This document shows positions 53,540 through 61,015 of a stretch of DNA of 64,000 nt, one piece after another. Position 1 is the first letter of the stretch, and every line of letters begins with the position of its first letter. Below the pieces are notes generated by a model. That model had not been told where the DNA came from. It did not search any database and saw only the letters and a list, made by a program, of their open reading frames with translations. The DNA is from an uncultured Granulosicoccaceae bacterium. GTDB taxonomy: Bacteria > Pseudomonadota > Gammaproteobacteria > Granulosicoccales > Granulosicoccaceae. Both the position numbers and the translations under genes were made by a program. Location: NCBI GenBank assembly GCA_938041955.1, contig CALISD010000120.1, positions 1-64,000 on the forward strand, written 5' to 3'.

Positions 53540-54127
53540 TCAATCTGTCGCAATCACTCGATACAACTGCGCCCTCACCTGACCTGCCACTTTATCCCGG
53601 TGCAGCTGCCAGTGTCCGGGCAAATCAAGCGTCTCGTGGCTCTTATCAATTTCGACGTAAACATGAGCTGAAGCGCTTAGCAACTGATGATGCTCGACCA
53701 CATCAATGCTCGCCTGATGCAGGTTTTCTGCAAAAGGCGGGTCGATAAATACCAGGTCAAATCCGGCGTCAGACAAGGCCGGGCTTCGATACGCAGCGGG
53801 CAGCGTGGCATCCCCAGCCACAATTTCAACGTTTTCAAAGTTCACGCGCTGAGCGTTTTCCCGGAGCATGCCAACGGCTGCGCGGTTTTTCTCCAGCAAA
53901 ACCACCTGTTCTGCGCCTCTTGAGGCAGCCTCAAAACCGAGCGCACCGCTACCAGCATACATATCCAGACAACGACAGCCCACAATGGAGTCCTGCAGCC
54001 AGGCAAACAACATTTCCCTGATGCGATCACCAGTCGGTCGCAGCCCCGGAGCCTCAGTCACGCGTATTTTGCTGCCCCGCTTAGAGCCGGAAATTATACG
54101 AACATCGCCACGCTGTTTTATACTCAT
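53540..54127 (-). CDS. rsmD: 16S rRNA m2G966 methyltransferase
   Basis: RsmD methylates guanine 966 of 16S rRNA using SAM. The 195-aa protein has the family start RIISGSKRGSKIRVTE, the stretch LRPTGDRIREMLFAWL, the SAM loop DMYAGSGALGFEAASRGA, and the catalytic motif FIDPPF (xDPPF type). It is divergent from ftsY and 35 bases upstream of coaD. Confidence 0.95.
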   Translation of the reverse strand: MSIKQRGDVRIISGSKRGSKIRVTEAPGLRPTGDRIREMLFAWLQDSIVGCRCLDMYAGSGALGFEAASRGAEQVVLLEKNRAAVGMLRENAQRVNFENVEIVAGDATLPAAYRSPALSDAGFDLVFIDPPFAENLHQASIDVVEHHQLLSASAHVYVEIDKSHETLDLPGHWQLHRDKVAGQVRAQLYRVIATD

Positions 54128-54174
54128 ATAAACATAATATCACCGACAATTCTCGCGACTGCTAAAATCACCTG

Positions 54175-55239
54175 ATGGGCCTATTCAGTTTTCTCAAAAA
54201 AAAGCCGTCCACCGATGTTCCCGGTGAAATCAATGACGGATCGCGTGATGCACAAAGTGTCAACGCAGAAACCACACCCGACATCTCACAAGATGAAGTC
54301 GATCGGCTGGACGCAAAGCTTGCCAAGTCTCGCAAGCGATTCACCAGCGGTTTACTCGATTTCTTTAGTGGCAGAAAGGTCGATGATGATCTGCTGGATG
54401 ACCTGGAAGCGCAGCTGGTCATGAGTGATGTCAGTGTGAAGACAGCGAACAAAATTATTGACTCGGTTCGAACTGCGGCCAAAAACAACCCATCAGACCT
54501 GCAAGCAATCTTACGCCAAGAGCTCACTCAGCTATTAACTCCCTGCCAGCAGCCTCTGGAAATACCTGATAACGAAACACCCTTTGTTTTACTCGTCGTG
54601 GGAGTAAATGGCGCAGGTAAAACCACCACCATAGGCAAAATTGCAAGGCAACTACAAAACGGCGGTAAAACCGTGATGTTGGCTGCAGGCGACACTTTTA
54701 GAGCAGCAGCGGTGGAACAACTGAAAACCTGGGGCGAACGCAACAATGTGCCTGTAGTAGCACAGGGGGATGGCGCAGATTCCGCATCGGTCATTTTTGA
54801 TGCACTGCAGTCAGCCAAAGCACGGGGCATAGACGTGCTGATTGCCGACACCGCCGGACGCCTGCACACACAACACGGGTTAATGGATGAACTAGGCAAA
54901 GTCAGCAGGGTAATAAAAAAGCTCGATCCATCAGCACCTCACGAAACACTTCTGGTATTGGATGGCACGACAGGTCAGAACGCCTTGAATCAAGCCCGGG
55001 AGTTTGGCAATTCGGTTGAAGTCAGTGGACTAGTCGTGACCAAGCTCGACGGCACTGCCAAAGGCGGGGTTCTATTTACCTTGGCAGACGAGCTCAATTT
55101 GCCGATTCGTTTTATTGGCGTCGGTGAGGGTATTTACGATTTGCGTGTATTTGACGCCCCGGATTTCGTAAACGCCCTGCTCGGCAATTATTCACCAGAC
55201 GGAAGTATCACGCCCACAGATGCGACTGGTCAGCTGTAG
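54175..55239 (+). CDS. ftsY: Signal recognition particle receptor FtsY
   Basis: FtsY is the membrane-associated SRP GTPase that targets nascent inner-membrane proteins to SecYEG. The product is 354 aa with a short acidic N-domain (about 40 residues), much less than in E. coli (about 200). The G1 motif is GVNGAGKT (143–150), with DTFRAAA, DTAGRLHTQ, and TKLDGTAKGG as the other GTPase blocks. It leads the ftsY–ftsE–ftsX cluster; the gap to ftsE is ten bases. Confidence 0.97.
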   Translation: MGLFSFLKKKPSTDVPGEINDGSRDAQSVNAETTPDISQDEVDRLDAKLAKSRKRFTSGLLDFFSGRKVDDDLLDDLEAQLVMSDVSVKTANKIIDSVRTAAKNNPSDLQAILRQELTQLLTPCQQPLEIPDNETPFVLLVVGVNGAGKTTTIGKIARQLQNGGKTVMLAAGDTFRAAAVEQLKTWGERNNVPVVAQGDGADSASVIFDALQSAKARGIDVLIADTAGRLHTQHGLMDELGKVSRVIKKLDPSAPHETLLVLDGTTGQNALNQAREFGNSVEVSGLVVTKLDGTAKGGVLFTLADELNLPIRFIGVGEGIYDLRVFDAPDFVNALLGNYSPDGSITPTDATGQL

Positions 55240-55249
55240 AGAAAATCAG

Positions 55250-55936
55250 GTGATCCATTTTCATAATGTGCATAAAACTGTTGATGGTCGGCGACTGTTT
55301 ACCGATCTGACTCTATTTTTGCCAAAAACCTCCTATACTTTACTCTGTGGTGGAACGCAGTCCGGCAAAACAACACTTTTGCGTATGATCATGGCCTATG
55401 AGAAGCCAGATCAAGGCGCACTTCGAGTTGACGGTATAGATCTCGGAGACATTCCTGCAAGCAGGATTCCGTTTTTACGACGTCAAATCGGCCTGATCGC
55501 AAATACTCCCGTATTACTTGAAGACAGATCTATAGTTGAAAATATTTCTGTTCCACTTCAGTTAGCCGGCTTTGACCAGGAAGTCATAGAAGAGCGCTTA
55601 GCGGCAACGCTTGAACAAACAGGCTTGCGTGACGAGCAACATATAAAGGTAAACAGACTGACAGCGCCAACCCGGCAATTAGTATCAGCAGCAAGAGCGA
55701 CGATTCACAAGCCAGCTATTATTCTGGCAGATGAACCACTAGAGAAAGTGGATGGCGACACTGCAAATCTTATTACCGGAATGTTGAACGAAGCTAACAC
55801 CGCTGGGGCGACCTTACTCATTGTGAGCCAAAGCGATGAGTTTTATGGTCAACGTGTGGCGAACGATTGCAAAACACTGACACTGTCAGAAGGGTCAATA
55901 AAGCAAAATGAATTCGAGCAGAACAACATCGGCTAG
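55250..55936 (+). CDS. ftsE: FtsE-like cell division ATPase with degenerate motifs
   Basis: FtsE normally powers FtsX to activate murein hydrolases at the septum. The start is taken as GTG at 55250 (228 aa), because VIHFHNVHK aligns with the E. coli start; an ATG at 55220 lies inside ftsY. Walker A GGTQSGKT (34–41) and Walker B with Asp161–Glu162 are intact. Other motifs are altered: the Q-loop Gln is Asn85 (RRQIGLIANTPVLLEDR), the signature LSGGEQQ reads LTAPTRQ (137–143), the D-loop is EKVD, and the H-loop His is Gln194 (VSQSDEF). ATP binding may persist but hydrolysis should be impaired. Confidence 0.88.
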   Translation: MIHFHNVHKTVDGRRLFTDLTLFLPKTSYTLLCGGTQSGKTTLLRMIMAYEKPDQGALRVDGIDLGDIPASRIPFLRRQIGLIANTPVLLEDRSIVENISVPLQLAGFDQEVIEERLAATLEQTGLRDEQHIKVNRLTAPTRQLVSAARATIHKPAIILADEPLEKVDGDTANLITGMLNEANTAGATLLIVSQSDEFYGQRVANDCKTLTLSEGSIKQNEFEQNNIG

Positions 55937-56822
55937 CTGGATAACAAGACTATGGCAGGCTAAAAACCCGACGCCATCGCGCTACAGCAAGAACGCGCGC
56001 CTGCTTTTACAGCTAAAAGACTGTTTCGCCTCGCTGCTGCGTACGCCTCCCAAAGCCGCATTTCTGATTTTTGCTCTGGTGCTGACACTACCCACCACAT
56101 TCGCGATTTTGTCCGGCAGCTTTGTATCAGCTGAAGAAAACCTCCTTCAGAATCGCCACATCACTGTTTTTTTGAATCCCCGTGTCTCGGAAACAGACGC
56201 GCAGCTACTCGCCACCAATCTAACCACCAACAAGCAAATTATCTCATCGGCTGTTACGCCAATGATAATTCAAGAAAGTGAATTGCTAACGGTAGATATT
56301 CAACCGTCTACAAACCTGAGCATTGAGCAGTTGAATCATATCGTGCGTGAGTTGAACAGCCACAGTTCAGTTGACTTTGTCGATGTCGATGCAACATGGC
56401 TGCAGGAAAACGTACTCGCCATAGAAACCACCAGGAAGCTCGCCTTTTTGGGCAGCGTTGTGGCGGCACTGATCACCTCGCTCTTAGCTTACGGAATCAC
56501 TCGTGCCGATCTCATGCGGCACCACGCCGAATATCGAGTATTGAACCAAATGGGCGCGAGCCACTCTACTGTGCTGAGACCAGTACTACTGCGTAGCCTG
56601 CTTTTGGCTTTATTTGCAGTAGCTCTGGCGACATTGCTGGCCTGGAGCGCCATAAAGATAGCCCCACATTTAGTTGATATATCTCCTTACAAAGCACTAT
56701 TTCCAACCTCAGCGCCGGTCATTCAACTGCTTTCGCTGATTTTGATCACTGTTGTAAGCTGCACATTGACCGTATATTTGCTGGGAAAAAAGCTATTTAA
56801 CTCTTATTTATCAATAGCTTAA
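55908..56822 (+). CDS. ftsX: Cell division protein FtsX
   Basis: FtsX is the four-span membrane partner of FtsE. The 304-aa protein has a basic cytoplasmic N-terminus, a membrane span at about 46–65, a periplasmic domain of about 110 residues (with ITVFLNPRVSETDAQLLATN), and three C-terminal spans. The conserved loop VLNQMGASHSTVLRP before the last two spans is present. It overlaps ftsE by 29 bases. The N-terminal tail is shorter than in E. coli (352 aa), but the fold appears complete. Confidence 0.93.
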   Translation: MNSSRTTSASWITRLWQAKNPTPSRYSKNARLLLQLKDCFASLLRTPPKAAFLIFALVLTLPTTFAILSGSFVSAEENLLQNRHITVFLNPRVSETDAQLLATNLTTNKQIISSAVTPMIIQESELLTVDIQPSTNLSIEQLNHIVRELNSHSSVDFVDVDATWLQENVLAIETTRKLAFLGSVVAALITSLLAYGITRADLMRHHAEYRVLNQMGASHSTVLRPVLLRSLLLALFAVALATLLAWSAIKIAPHLVDISPYKALFPTSAPVIQLLSLILITVVSCTLTVYLLGKKLFNSYLSIA

Positions 56823-56870
56823 CTATTTTTGTCAGCTTTTTAATAAGCAATACCTACTAAATGTAGGATT

Positions 56871-56900
56871 TTGGTCGATAAATGGGGAACTTCCAATACT
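56871..56900 (+). promoter_or_regulatory. Candidate housekeeping promoter of rpoH
   Basis: TTGGTC at 56871–56876 and AATACT at 56895–56900 are 18 bases apart. The predicted transcription start would fall inside the CIRCE repeat that follows. The match to consensus is moderate. Confidence 0.4.
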
Positions 56901-56901
56901 G

Positions 56902-56928
56902 TTAGCACTCTAACCCTGTGAGTGCTAA
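56902..56928. promoter_or_regulatory. CIRCE element (HrcA operator) upstream of rpoH
   Basis: The element is a perfect copy of the consensus: TTAGCACTC at 56902–56910, a nine-base spacer, and GAGTGCTAA at 56920–56928. CIRCE is bound by the heat-shock repressor HrcA, usually upstream of groESL or the hrcA–grpE–dnaKJ operon. Here it lies 31 bases before the rpoH ATG and overlaps the likely transcription start, so it would block rpoH transcription when HrcA is active. Confidence 0.92.
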
Positions 56929-56959
56929 AATAGAATTTATTCAATCGGAGAATACAAAA

Positions 56960-57832
56960 ATGGCCCAAGCTATGGTGAAAGCGTCAACGATGACTTTGCC
57001 TGCGGTCAATGATGATCTAAACGGATACCTTTCCAAGATATCCGCGTTCCCTGTACTAACAGTCGAACAAGAACAAGTCCTTGCCCGCAAATATCGTGAC
57101 GAAGAAGATCTCGATTCCGCCGGACAAATGGTGATGTCTCAGCTGCGCTTTGTCGTGCATCTGGCTCGCAGTTACAGTGGCTACGGATTGCCGTTGGCCG
57201 ATCTCGTCCAGGAAGGAAATATCGGCCTTATGAAAGCGGTAAAACGCTTCGACCCTGATGTGGGAGTTCGTTTGATCTCCTTCGCAGTGCACTGGATTCG
57301 TGCAGAAATCCACGAATACGTGATACGCAACTGGCGCATCGTCAAAGTGGCTACTACCAAAGCCCAACGCAAGTTGTTCTTTAAGTTGCGCAGCTCTAAA
57401 AAGGGACTGGGATGGTTTTCACAAGCTGAAGCACAAGCGGTAGCAGAAGACTTAGGTGTGACTGAAGCACAGGTCTATGAAATGGAGTCGCGACTCACTA
57501 GCGGCGACATGTCGTTTGATGCGACCACTGCAGACGACGGCACTGAGAAGCGTGCACTGCGACCAGCTGAGTACTTGTATGACGACAATGGCGATCCCGC
57601 CGTTGCCGCTGAAAGCGAGAACTATGCTAATTCCCAGGTCACCACACTGACTGCAGGAATGGAGGAGCTCGATGACCGCAGCCGTAACATCTTGCAACGC
57701 AGATGGCTGAACGACGACAACAAATCGACGTTACAGGAACTGGCAGATGAGTACAGTGTTTCTGCAGAGAGGATCAGGCAGATTGAGAAAGCTGCGATGA
57801 ATAAGCTGAAGGCGCATATGCTAGACGCATAA
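56960..57832 (+). CDS. rpoH: RNA polymerase heat-shock sigma factor sigma-32
   Basis: Sigma-32 directs RNA polymerase to heat-shock promoters. The start is the ATG at 56960 with a GGAG ribosome site; an upstream GTG lies inside the CIRCE repeat and is rejected. The product is 290 aa. Region 2 reads DLVQEGNIGLMKAVKRFDPD and FAVHWIRAEIHEYVIRNWRIVKV, and the RpoH box QRKLFFKLR is present. Region 4 is at the C-terminus (TLQELADEYSVSAERIRQIE). It follows ftsX, as in E. coli. Confidence 0.97.
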   Translation: MAQAMVKASTMTLPAVNDDLNGYLSKISAFPVLTVEQEQVLARKYRDEEDLDSAGQMVMSQLRFVVHLARSYSGYGLPLADLVQEGNIGLMKAVKRFDPDVGVRLISFAVHWIRAEIHEYVIRNWRIVKVATTKAQRKLFFKLRSSKKGLGWFSQAEAQAVAEDLGVTEAQVYEMESRLTSGDMSFDATTADDGTEKRALRPAEYLYDDNGDPAVAAESENYANSQVTTLTAGMEELDDRSRNILQRRWLNDDNKSTLQELADEYSVSAERIRQIEKAAMNKLKAHMLDA

Positions 57833-57881
57833 TGACTTGCTATCGGGGCTGGGTATTTGCCCCTGATTGACCGTTGAACTC

Positions 57882-57912
57882 AAAGCCGCTCTCTTTTGAG
57901 AGCGGCTTTTTT
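57882..57912. terminator. Rho-independent terminator after rpoH
   Basis: AAAGCCGCTCTC (57882–57893) pairs with GAGAGCGGCTTT (57898–57909) around a TTTT loop, with a T-run to 57912. It ends rpoH, and the A-run on the other side may also serve the convergent gene. Confidence 0.92.
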
Positions 57913-57924
57913 ACATACGGGCGT

Positions 57925-59091
57925 CTAATATTTTTCCGATACCAGCCGTTCTATGCTTCGAAGCACCATCGAACCATCCGGCATTATTATCCAATCATCT
58001 TGTGGACCTTTCAGCGCACCGGTATCCATCATCGCACCGGCATCGGTCACCATAATGTCTTGCTCTTTCAACATCGTTTCAGAATCTTCAAAAATAACAT
58101 TTTCAGATTTCATTGGCTTCGAATCGCTTTCCATTACATCGCTTTCCAACGAATCGACCAGTATCTCATCCATTGCTTCGGCGACAGGCGCTATCACGTC
58201 TTGATCAACAGTATTTTCCTGATCAACGATCGGCAACTCCGGGATAGCAACAGCGAGTCCATCCATTATTTTTTCAATTGGCTCAGCCACTTTTTCTGCA
58301 CCTTTTGAGCGTTTATGATCCTGGTTGTTGGTCACCATACGCTGGTCTTTTTGCATCACCACGCCGTTACCGGATACCTTGATACCTTCGAAGCTACCGC
58401 TTTCCTGATTTCCAATTCCCCCAAGCGATGCACGTTCATCAGTTTTGACTTTCGAAGCATCCGCAACATCAATCACACCACGAATATCATCCAGTGAAAC
58501 ATTTTCAGGCTGCTTTAGGATTTGGAGCGCCAGCGTTCGGTAATCTTCCAGAGACAAGCCTTTCATATTCGGCTGTATATATTCCACTTTATAAAGAACG
58601 GTGTCGGGGTAAACCACTATCTCTTCAGCCACCTCAACAAACTCTACCAATGGCCAGCGAGGAGCAAAGGCATAAGCACCTGCATAGGCAATTTTCGCGT
58701 CCGCATCATCAACGCCCTCAACTCTCAATCCGTTATAGAAAGTTGCCTGCACGTCTTGCCAGGGGCGAACCTTGTCTGCACTGGAAACACTGTGAATTGC
58801 CACCGTTTTAAGGTAGTCACTCACTGGCAAAAGCCCGGAGTACTGCCAAACCACAGGCGGCACAGTTTGCTTTAATTCAGAGCCTTTGGGTGCAACCACT
58901 GGCTCTGCACCAGGGACGCTGAAGAAGAGATCACAACGCAGGATACGGCCACCGTTGATAAACAAACGACCCTCGGGAACACGTGTGGTGTACTCACCGA
59001 AGTTTGCCGATGCACTGGTTAACCCGACCGTAGCCAACCCGACAGCGACCAATGGAACCACCAACGTTGGCAGGCCGATAAATTTACTCAT
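57925..59091 (-). CDS. Secreted protein with acidic Met-rich tail, unknown
   Basis: The 388-aa protein has a signal peptide (FIGLPTLVVPLVAVGLATVG ... SASANF). The N-terminal 200 residues look folded, with FINGGRILRCDLFFSVPG and a stretch VYPDTVLYKVEYIQPNMKGLSLEDYRTL. Residues about 275–365 are acidic and low-complexity, rich in Asp, Glu, Met, Val and Ser. The end, DDWIIMPDGSMVLRSIERLV, is distinct. I know no family for it. It is convergent with rpoH. Confidence 0.75.
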   Translation of the reverse strand: MSKFIGLPTLVVPLVAVGLATVGLTSASANFGEYTTRVPEGRLFINGGRILRCDLFFSVPGAEPVVAPKGSELKQTVPPVVWQYSGLLPVSDYLKTVAIHSVSSADKVRPWQDVQATFYNGLRVEGVDDADAKIAYAGAYAFAPRWPLVEFVEVAEEIVVYPDTVLYKVEYIQPNMKGLSLEDYRTLALQILKQPENVSLDDIRGVIDVADASKVKTDERASLGGIGNQESGSFEGIKVSGNGVVMQKDQRMVTNNQDHKRSKGAEKVAEPIEKIMDGLAVAIPELPIVDQENTVDQDVIAPVAEAMDEILVDSLESDVMESDSKPMKSENVIFEDSETMLKEQDIMVTDAGAMMDTGALKGPQDDWIIMPDGSMVLRSIERLVSEKY

Positions 59092-59459
59092 ACATTTGCC
59101 CTGGAAGATTACAAGCTGACAGCGCAGCTTTTTATATCGAATTTTGACAGCAAAGTATCAAATCGACCTTCCGGCAACTGTGAAGGGATCGACGCTACGA
59201 ACAGCAAAGTATTACGATTAGCGTTTAGCGAAGGCCATGCAAGTATTTGCACACTGTCAGGGCGTGTCGTTTAGTTAGCAGCGCAAGGAAAATGAGACTA
59301 ACTGTAACAACCTTGAAGCAGCAGTGGCACTGGCACGAAGGGATGTTGTAACCCGCAATTAACCACTAATAGGTTTTACACTGGCAGAGGCAAGGGACGC
59401 TCAGTCACAACTGATAAACAATCGCAATTCAATGCTTGCAGAACATCTATCTCATATGT
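59092..59459. other. Intergenic region upstream of the secreted protein gene
   Basis: These 368 bases lie between the secreted-protein start and the ctaB stop. I see no gene, tRNA, strong terminator or repeat. It should contain the promoter of the minus-strand gene at 57925–59091, but no clear -35/-10 pair was found. Confidence 0.4.
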
Positions 59460-60389
59460 TTACAGAAATATCGGAAAGTAGTGATCAACCAATAAAGCAG
59501 CAAACAGCCCCATCAGGTATTTAATAGAGACGACAAACATACGCATTGGCTCTTTGGCATGCTGCGGATTTTGTATTTTTATCGCGTGAAATAAAAACCA
59601 TCCGTCCAGGGCGAGTGCTGCCATCAAGTACAACAAGCCACTCATTTGGATGAGGTAAGGGCCAATAGTGACTAGCAGCAGTAATATGGTATAGAGCAAA
59701 ATTTGTACACGGGTGTACTCGTTACCATGGGTCACCGGCAACATAGGTATGCCGACTTTGGCGTAGTCATCACGACGATGAATCGCTAACGCCCAGAAGT
59801 GGGGTGGCGTCCAGATAAATACAATCAGAAAAAGCAGCAAGGGCTCGGCGGTCACCTCCCCTGTGATCGCAGCCCAACCCAGGACCGGTGGCATGGCACC
59901 GGCTACACCGCCTATAACAATGTTCTGCGGAGTGGCACGCTTCAAATACATGGTGTAAACGCAGGCATAACCAATCAATGAAAGGAACGTCAGCACTGCG
60001 GTAAGCACATTAACTAAAGCAACAAGCAACACCATTGCGATCACACCCAGAACAGCGGCAAACAACAAACACTGAGCAGTGGTCAGGTTGCCTTTGGGCA
60101 AAGGGCGATTGCGGGTTCGATTCATCTGTGCGTCAGCACGTTGATCCACCACATGATTAATAACAGCAGCAGAAGCCGCTGCGAGTCCAATACCCATTAT
60201 TCCAAATATTGATTGCTGCAACGGCACCATCCCCGGTACCGACAACAACATGCCTACAACTGCGGTAAACACCAGCAACAATACAACCTTGGGCTTGGTC
60301 AACTCAAGAAGGTCTGACAGCACAGAGGAGTGCGGCACAGCCAGGTTGTCAGAAATAGAATCAGTTTCGTTGTGAGGTTGAATCGCCAC
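59460..60389 (-). CDS. ctaB: Heme O synthase (protoheme IX farnesyltransferase)
   Basis: CtaB/CyoE attaches farnesyl to heme B to make heme O. The 309-aa protein has about nine membrane spans and the prenyltransferase acid motif NHVVDQRADAQMNRTRNRPLPKG, with a second DDYAKVGIPMLP region (HRRDDYAKVG). LELTKPKVVLLLVFTAVVGM is the N-terminal family block. It shares one base with the upstream gene. No ctaA (heme A synthase) is found beside it. Confidence 0.96.
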   Translation of the reverse strand: MAIQPHNETDSISDNLAVPHSSVLSDLLELTKPKVVLLLVFTAVVGMLLSVPGMVPLQQSIFGIMGIGLAAASAAVINHVVDQRADAQMNRTRNRPLPKGNLTTAQCLLFAAVLGVIAMVLLVALVNVLTAVLTFLSLIGYACVYTMYLKRATPQNIVIGGVAGAMPPVLGWAAITGEVTAEPLLLFLIVFIWTPPHFWALAIHRRDDYAKVGIPMLPVTHGNEYTRVQILLYTILLLLVTIGPYLIQMSGLLYLMAALALDGWFLFHAIKIQNPQHAKEPMRMFVVSIKYLMGLFAALLVDHYFPIFL

Positions 60390-61015
60390 TAGCCTATCCT
60401 GGAAACTTTAAGGAGATGTTTTACGTCTTTGAGGATTTTTGCAGGCTCAAGATCTGGCGAAAAACGCATCATTAAATTGCCATAGGGATCAACCATATAC
60501 ATACACCCGTCACACGCTGCCAGGTTACTTTGTGCGTCGTCAAACTGTGATCGCAATACCCCGACCTTATCAAGGTTACCACCGACGACGAATAGACCTT
60601 CGTCTGCATTCTCGAGCTTCTGCTGCATATTCTGCCACTCAGAGGTGACCAAAACGCGCTGTAGGCGCTCCATACGGCGACCGGTAGATAGCCGAATCTG
60701 GCGCATATTGTATAGCGCAGTTTCACATAGCTGATCACAAGAACCCTCTGCAAAATACACCATGCTCCACTTGCCACGAATATCATCCAGTCCCCACGCC
60801 GGCTGAGAGGTGGTAGCAAGCTCAAACGGCTCAAGCGGCACAGCCGGGTGAATGAGCTCACCATTGACGGACACACCTGCCCCTTCATTAGCATTTACAT
60901 AAGCAAACCACAACCATGCAGCGATTAACGGCGCAGCGTAGAGCCCCATCAGCCCAAGCAACTTAGCGCGGCTCAATTTAAGCGAATTTTTTTTCACCGC
61001 TTTTGTATCAGTCAT
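60389..61015 (-). CDS. SCO-like cytochrome oxidase assembly protein
   Basis: The 208-aa protein has one N-terminal membrane anchor (LLGLMGLYAAPLIAAWLWFAYV) and a thioredoxin-like domain with a CxxxC pair, CDQLC, in YFAEGSCDQLCETALYNMRQ. It also has an ACDGCMYMVDPYGNLMMRF stretch. Homologues lie between SURF1 and ctaA/ctaB in many gammaproteobacteria, but their exact role is unknown. A copper or redox function is inferred from the cysteine pair. It overlaps the SURF1 gene by eight bases. Confidence 0.8.
   Translation of the reverse strand: MTDTKAVKKNSLKLSRAKLLGLMGLYAAPLIAAWLWFAYVNANEGAGVSVNGELIHPAVPLEPFELATTSQPAWGLDDIRGKWSMVYFAEGSCDQLCETALYNMRQIRLSTGRRMERLQRVLVTSEWQNMQQKLENADEGLFVVGGNLDKVGVLRSQFDDAQSNLAACDGCMYMVDPYGNLMMRFSPDLEPAKILKDVKHLLKVSRIG

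Follow-up and report, generated by a model that had tools for sequence, protein, structure and literature searches.

The operator and its setting

The window analysed here, a stretch of 64,000 nucleotides assigned to an uncultured Granulosicoccaceae bacterium, shows the gene order ftsY-ftsE-ftsX-rpoH (where ftsE and ftsX stand for ftsE- and ftsX-like genes), and a CIRCE, the predicted binding site of the repressor HrcA, precedes rpoH. The earlier note on this DNA had described this element as perfect, and its coordinates, arms and spacer all proved correct. The features that the argument draws upon are as follows:

55908-56822, plus strand: ftsX-like gene, upstream context (TIGR00439, 64.9 bits, under the cut-off of 255)
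56886-56892, plus strand: -35 element of a sigma-E-type promoter, GGAACTT (exact consensus, at a conserved fixed offset from the CIRCE)
56902-56910 (left arm), 56911-56919 (spacer) and 56920-56928 (right arm), plus strand: CIRCE operator, predicted HrcA site (0 mismatches; conserved in family and class)
56902-56931, plus strand: possible sigma-70-type promoter nested here, TTAGCA-N18-TAAAAT, its -10 element preceded by TG (consensus scan)
56909-56913, plus strand: -10 element of the sigma-E-type promoter, TCTAA (16-nt spacing to the -35 element)
56919-56921, plus strand: inferred transcription start of the sigma-E-type promoter (from the usual distance between start and -10 element)
56947-56951, plus strand: Shine-Dalgarno-like GGAGA upstream of rpoH (direct reading of the sequence)
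56960-57832, plus strand: rpoH, encoding sigma-32, 290 aa, the target gene (TIGR02392, an NCBIfam equivalog, 389.8 bits, cut-off 323.1)

The operator, TTAGCACTC-TAACCCTGT-GAGTGCTAA, spans 56902-56928, with both arms free of mismatches around a nine-base spacer and the rpoH ATG 31 nt downstream. The pattern TTAGCACTC-N9-GAGTGCTAA is matched only once within the 64 kb when up to three mismatches are tolerated (shuffled sequences yielded a mean of 0.03 at the same tolerance), and about 1e-6 perfect CIRCEs would be expected per window under even base composition.

As for the neighbouring genes, the ftsE-like protein (55220-55936 of the window) reached 146.7 bits vs. an NCBIfam cut-off of 264.85, and, since both this score and that of the ftsX-like protein lie far under the respective NCBIfam cut-offs, FtsEX seems to be divergent here, beside a normal FtsY and a normal RpoH. 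A 388-aa reading frame on the minus strand (57925-59091), which faces rpoH, had no NCBIfam or Pfam match at E 0.001.

HrcA and its other putative targets in the source genome

The source genome assembly (6.18 Mb in 222 contigs, 93.5% complete) contains a single copy of hrcA (PF01628, 220.8 bits, cut-off 22.2), followed by grpE; the absence of this gene had been set beforehand by the earlier note as grounds for abandoning its reading. A whole-genome search allowing up to three mismatches returned two CIRCE matches, both of them perfect: the one at rpoH and another, the further copy whose search had been suggested, located 52 nt before groES, i.e., in front of groESL, a classical HrcA target. 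As the reversed CIRCE pattern, used as a control for this search, gave three matches at the same tolerance of up to three mismatches, degenerate sites are indistinguishable from chance, and it is perfection alone that sets the two real sites apart.

Upstream of the genome's own hrcA there is no CIRCE (the best match has seven mismatches), which indicates that the usual, albeit not universal, autoregulation of HrcA is missing here. A sigma-32-like site, CTTGAAA-N14-GCCTAT (locus L003, 2205-2231), lies at the 3' end of hrcA, ahead of grpE, and scored 11 of 13 (shuffle P 0.01, uncorrected, and the best among four regions tried). Sigma-32-like sites before groES (score 10, shuffle P 0.12) and before hrcA (score 9, P 0.38) did not reach significance, and none was found upstream of rpoH, where one was also looked for.

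Conservation of the operator before rpoH

Whether related genomes share the arrangement had been left open, and the comparison shows that they do. The family sample consisted of 48 genomes, 43 of which had a rpoH locus including its 5' part, and a CIRCE precedes rpoH in 42 of these 43 loci (39 perfect, three with one mismatch), starting 58-77 nt before the rpoH ATG; at the 43rd locus the left part is cut by a contig end, and the right arm is visible. The class, which is understood here as Gammaproteobacteria in the wide sense, betaproteobacteria included, was represented by a draw of 321 genomes, with hrcA found in 230 and a perfect CIRCE present somewhere in the genome in 186 of them. A rpoH over the model cut-off was present in 291, and the best 130 of these 291 by rpoH score (one near a contig end having been removed), which is not a random choice, were examined at the locus itself. 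Among these best 130 of 291, a CIRCE with no more than three mismatches precedes rpoH at 108 loci, representing 68 of 81 families, with 54 of the sites being perfect and 33, 12 and nine having one, two and three mismatches, respectively. The remaining 22 of the best 130 loci have 5-9 mismatches and none has four, so the loci fall into two separate groups. The arrangement is thus not special to the genome at hand, being common in its family and class and predicted earlier in Geobacter sulfurreducens in the portion of PMC545781 drawn upon here.

Presence of the operator follows that of its repressor, as, among the best 130 of 291, 100 of the 108 loci from genomes with hrcA have a CIRCE at rpoH vs. 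eight of the 22 from genomes without it (Fisher p 3e-8, with kinship ignored). Conversely, eight of the 108 hrcA-bearing genomes in the same set have no CIRCE at the rpoH examined. This association also bears on the notion that the inverted repeat acts as an mRNA hairpin, be it a thermometer or a stability element, instead of a DNA operator. The RNA of 56902-56960 does fold into a nine-pair stem and a smaller additional one (-13.9 kcal/mol in total), but transcripts beginning at the inferred starts, 56919-56921 or 56938, would exclude the left arm, an Rfam search of 54000-60500 gave zero matches, and it is the sequence itself, beyond mere pairing, that has been kept and that equals the groES operator. 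Taken together with the association with hrcA, this renders a role as a hairpin very improbable.

Another possible explanation would be that of a relic, with an ancestral HrcA control of rpoH having lapsed and the site being retained since its bases also serve as promoter elements. Parts of both CIRCE arms do coincide with -10 elements, and eight genomes of the best 130 of 291 lack a detected hrcA and nevertheless retain a CIRCE-like sequence at rpoH (five of these assemblies are less than 80% complete and three are 97-99% complete). However, 87 of the 108 class CIRCEs (best 130 of 291) have at most one mismatch over the full length, even at positions that play no obvious part in a promoter; the genome under study itself keeps both hrcA and a perfect site; and at two rpoH sites both arms have shifted jointly to one identical new core, all of which makes a mere relic a most unlikely reading. 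Conservation this strong is hard to explain otherwise than by function, and the CIRCE before rpoH is real and, judged by its conservation, very likely functional.

Some genomes carry a symmetric variant core, GCAGTC..GACTGC, at rpoH. Genomes G059 and G319 (loci L442 and L443) have hrcA and no perfect CIRCE in the genome, and each shows one site within two mismatches of the GCAGTC-core variant, located beside rpoH, which may therefore be the main remaining target of HrcA in these two genomes. A coevolution of the rpoH and groESL operators was also considered and set aside, as no second variant site (up to two mismatches) occurs in G059 and G319, leaving an in-step change at groESL unsupported.

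A putative sigma-E-type promoter under the operator

Sigma-E (ECF02) promoters follow a GGAACTT-N16/17-TCTGA-like pattern, and GGAACTT-N16-TCTAA at 56886-56913 matches the sigma-E consensus GGAACTT-N16-TCTRA exactly, with the CIRCE lying over it: the TCTAA of the -10 element begins with the last two left-arm bases and runs three bases into the spacer. The earlier note had the operator overlapping the predicted transcription start, and an overlap with consensus promoter elements is indeed seen. The genome also encodes the corresponding sigma factor, RpoE (TIGR02939, 304.6 bits, cut-off 236.15), and an rseA-like gene (RseA_N protein) adjoins rpoE.

Taken alone, the match is not significant (0.46 expected in 64 kb if one mismatch is tolerated), and the motif, though unremarkable in 64 kb, stands out because it is conserved. 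GAAC[TC] starts precisely 15 nt upstream of the left arm in 41/42 family rpoH sites and in 71/104 other class sites; within 2 nt of that offset it is present in 42/42 and 81/104, respectively, while in 23/104 class sites it does not occur within -17..-13, and the -35 element is correctly placed in 53 of the 67 families scored. At the same offset it was seen in 0/41 groES and 0/8 hrcA CIRCEs among the matches listed, these controls being all perfect, whereas the rpoH set allows up to three mismatches. The third spacer position is A in 29/42 family and 83/104 class rpoH sites (2/41 groES and 3/8 hrcA controls among the matches listed), and the full TCTnA is found in only 22/42 and 58/104 (0/41 and 3/8 among the matches listed, the latter by chance or otherwise).

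When named genomes were scanned for the composite (-35 element, CIRCE, ATG and RpoH motif), it was found in at least 120 stretches, the 80 titles listed pointing to gamma- or betaproteobacteria or just to "Proteobacteria". Carriers among the matches listed include Rhodocyclaceae, Thioalkalivibrio, Alcanivorax, Methylomonas, Azoarcus, Thiobacillus and Rhodanobacter, which we take to belong to the gamma- or betaproteobacteria. A phylum-wide composite pattern matched 6/398 genomes, a count that should not be read as a frequency, as the gap range of the pattern was too low and missed even the window's own site. In the class of genome G408, a CIRCE (up to three mismatches) precedes the best RpoH match in nine of the 30 loci taken (six loci from the pattern search being excluded), and a sigma-E -35 element was present in 0/9 of these CIRCE-bearing loci within the stretch inspected, suggesting that the fusion with a sigma-E promoter may be specific to gamma- and betaproteobacteria. 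Several CIRCE-bearing rpoH relatives of that class (loci L406-L437) have TTGAC-type -35 boxes upstream, resembling groESL.

The overlap of a sigma-E promoter with CIRCE was not found in the literature searched, the coverage of which ended short of the beta/gamma HrcA-site survey by Permina and Gelfand (2003), which may already list a CIRCE at rpoH in some of these groups. It is the register-exact fusion of CIRCE with the putative sigma-E promoter that we consider to be the new part.

A possible second promoter

The only sigma-70 match in a consensus scan of 56700-57950 is TTAGCA-N18-TAAAAT, with a TG upstream of the -10 element, and it is weak when taken alone, as shuffled sequences average 1.5. 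It raises the question of whether HrcA represses rpoH solely through this sigma-70-type promoter, with GGAACTT being unused or serving another factor. In its favor, AT occupies the last two positions of the sigma-70 -10 element in 40/42 family and 74/104 class rpoH sites vs. 0/41 groES (and 0/8 hrcA) controls among the matches listed. Yet TTAGCA agrees with TTGACA at only four of six positions, GAAC[TC] is conserved at its fixed distance at rpoH and absent at groES among the matches listed, and, according to the part of PMC3490749 consulted, the SigE holoenzyme of Bordetella bronchiseptica transcribes the promoter region of rpoH (fam) in vitro. An exclusively sigma-70-dependent rpoH is, therefore, unlikely, and we keep to the sigma-E-type promoter as the principal one, while a second, weaker promoter of the sigma-70 type may, with moderate confidence, be taken to overlap the CIRCE.

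The left-arm variant TTGGCACTC was weighed separately. Its G is on the left in 34/146 rpoH sites and on the right in two, and the variant turned up 83 times in 67/321 genomes, with the 30 loci returned comprising 19 rpoH, eight groES, two hrcA and one unassigned. Selection for a sigma-70 -35 element was dropped as its explanation, because all eight groES sites also have the variant on the left, and a TTGG left arm, though it would improve TTAGCA as a -35 element, is equally one-sided at groES and lends no support to such an element.

Proposed mechanism and its evolution

The common account has HrcA/CIRCE and sigma-32 as heat-shock systems that either stand in for each other or run in parallel, and the sigma-E promoter of E. 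coli rpoH (P3), operating without HrcA, is the textbook case. The earlier note had proposed that HrcA is joined to the sigma-32 circuit, and the overlap and conservation described above speak for this; what has to be amended is the number of circuits, which would be three instead of two, the promoter being sigma-E-like. We regard it as quite probable that the repeat functions as an HrcA operator within the promoter of rpoH, with HrcA repressing by covering a promoter of the sigma-E type.

In class I regulation, the activity of HrcA depends on GroEL, which, when free, keeps HrcA folded. What we infer for the present locus, from the operator, its geometry and conservation and the presence of hrcA and rpoE-rseA, is that active HrcA would bind 56902-56928 and cover the sigma-E-type -10 element and the start region, so that little sigma-32 would be made; it would probably also cover the weaker sigma-70-type promoter, whose TAAAAT lies at the right edge and would be half covered. 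Once misfolded cytoplasmic protein titrates GroEL, HrcA would become inactive, and groESL and rpoH would be derepressed jointly, whereupon sigma-E, freed by envelope stress, could fire rpoH strongly. RpoH would in turn drive CIRCE-less genes such as grpE, which, having a sigma-32-like site and no CIRCE, would follow through RpoH.

On the evidence of the sequence comparisons, this composite switch, which recurs in many related bacteria, looks like an old and widely maintained connection among three stress circuits, not an oddity of one genome. We are evenly divided as to whether the composite of HrcA operator and sigma-E promoter was the ancestral rpoH control of the gamma- and betaproteobacteria, by which sigma-E raises sigma-32 only when GroEL is short, with the E. 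coli layout being a stripped-down descendant after the loss of hrcA. An operator conserved this widely within the rpoH promoter would tie HrcA/CIRCE and sigma-32 into one hierarchical circuit, the GroEL level (via HrcA) and envelope stress (via sigma-E) would both be read at a single promoter, and the rpoH arrangement of E. coli would have to be recast as derived.

Comparison with known systems

The basic form, a CIRCE before rpoH, is known, widely shared and not unique: it was predicted in Geobacter sulfurreducens by Rodionov et al. 2004 (PMC545781), and, as far as the portion of that article consulted goes, both organisms have a perfect CIRCE before rpoH (at -51 there and at -58 here), an hrcA gene and a CIRCE at groESL. 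Unlike here, the hrcA-grpE-dnaK-dnaJ operon of G. sulfurreducens has a CIRCE, and the same portion of the source (PMC545781) makes no mention of a sigma-E promoter beneath the operator. The sigma-E side of the arrangement finds its counterpart in B. bronchiseptica fam, where a sigma-E-type promoter likewise lies directly upstream of the rpoH gene and is transcribed in vitro by the SigE holoenzyme, with HrcA going unmentioned in PMC3490749; the same paper uses P3 as the name of the sigma-E-dependent rpoH promoter of E. coli.

With the classical class I operator at groESL the rpoH CIRCE shares its sequence and differs from it in register. At groES, among the matches listed, a TTGA[CAT] -35 element starts 27 nt ahead of the left arm (38/41) and TAnnA ends directly before that arm (38/41), so that the groES -10 element stops at the first base of the arm. 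The sigma-E -10 element of rpoH, by contrast, is located inside the CIRCE; the two placements amount to one operator used in two registers.

In E. coli, GAACTT-N16-TCTGA is found upstream of rpoH, with the same spacing as GGAACTT-N16-TCTAA here, whereas there is no CIRCE (seven mismatches at best in 647 nt) and the control search for HrcA gave no match in E. coli. Three of the 19 CIRCE-less class loci also have a sigma-E-like score of at least 11 (reached by 0.1% of shuffles), two of the three being without hrcA, and this, along with the E. coli layout, fits a loss of HrcA that left the sigma-E promoter behind.
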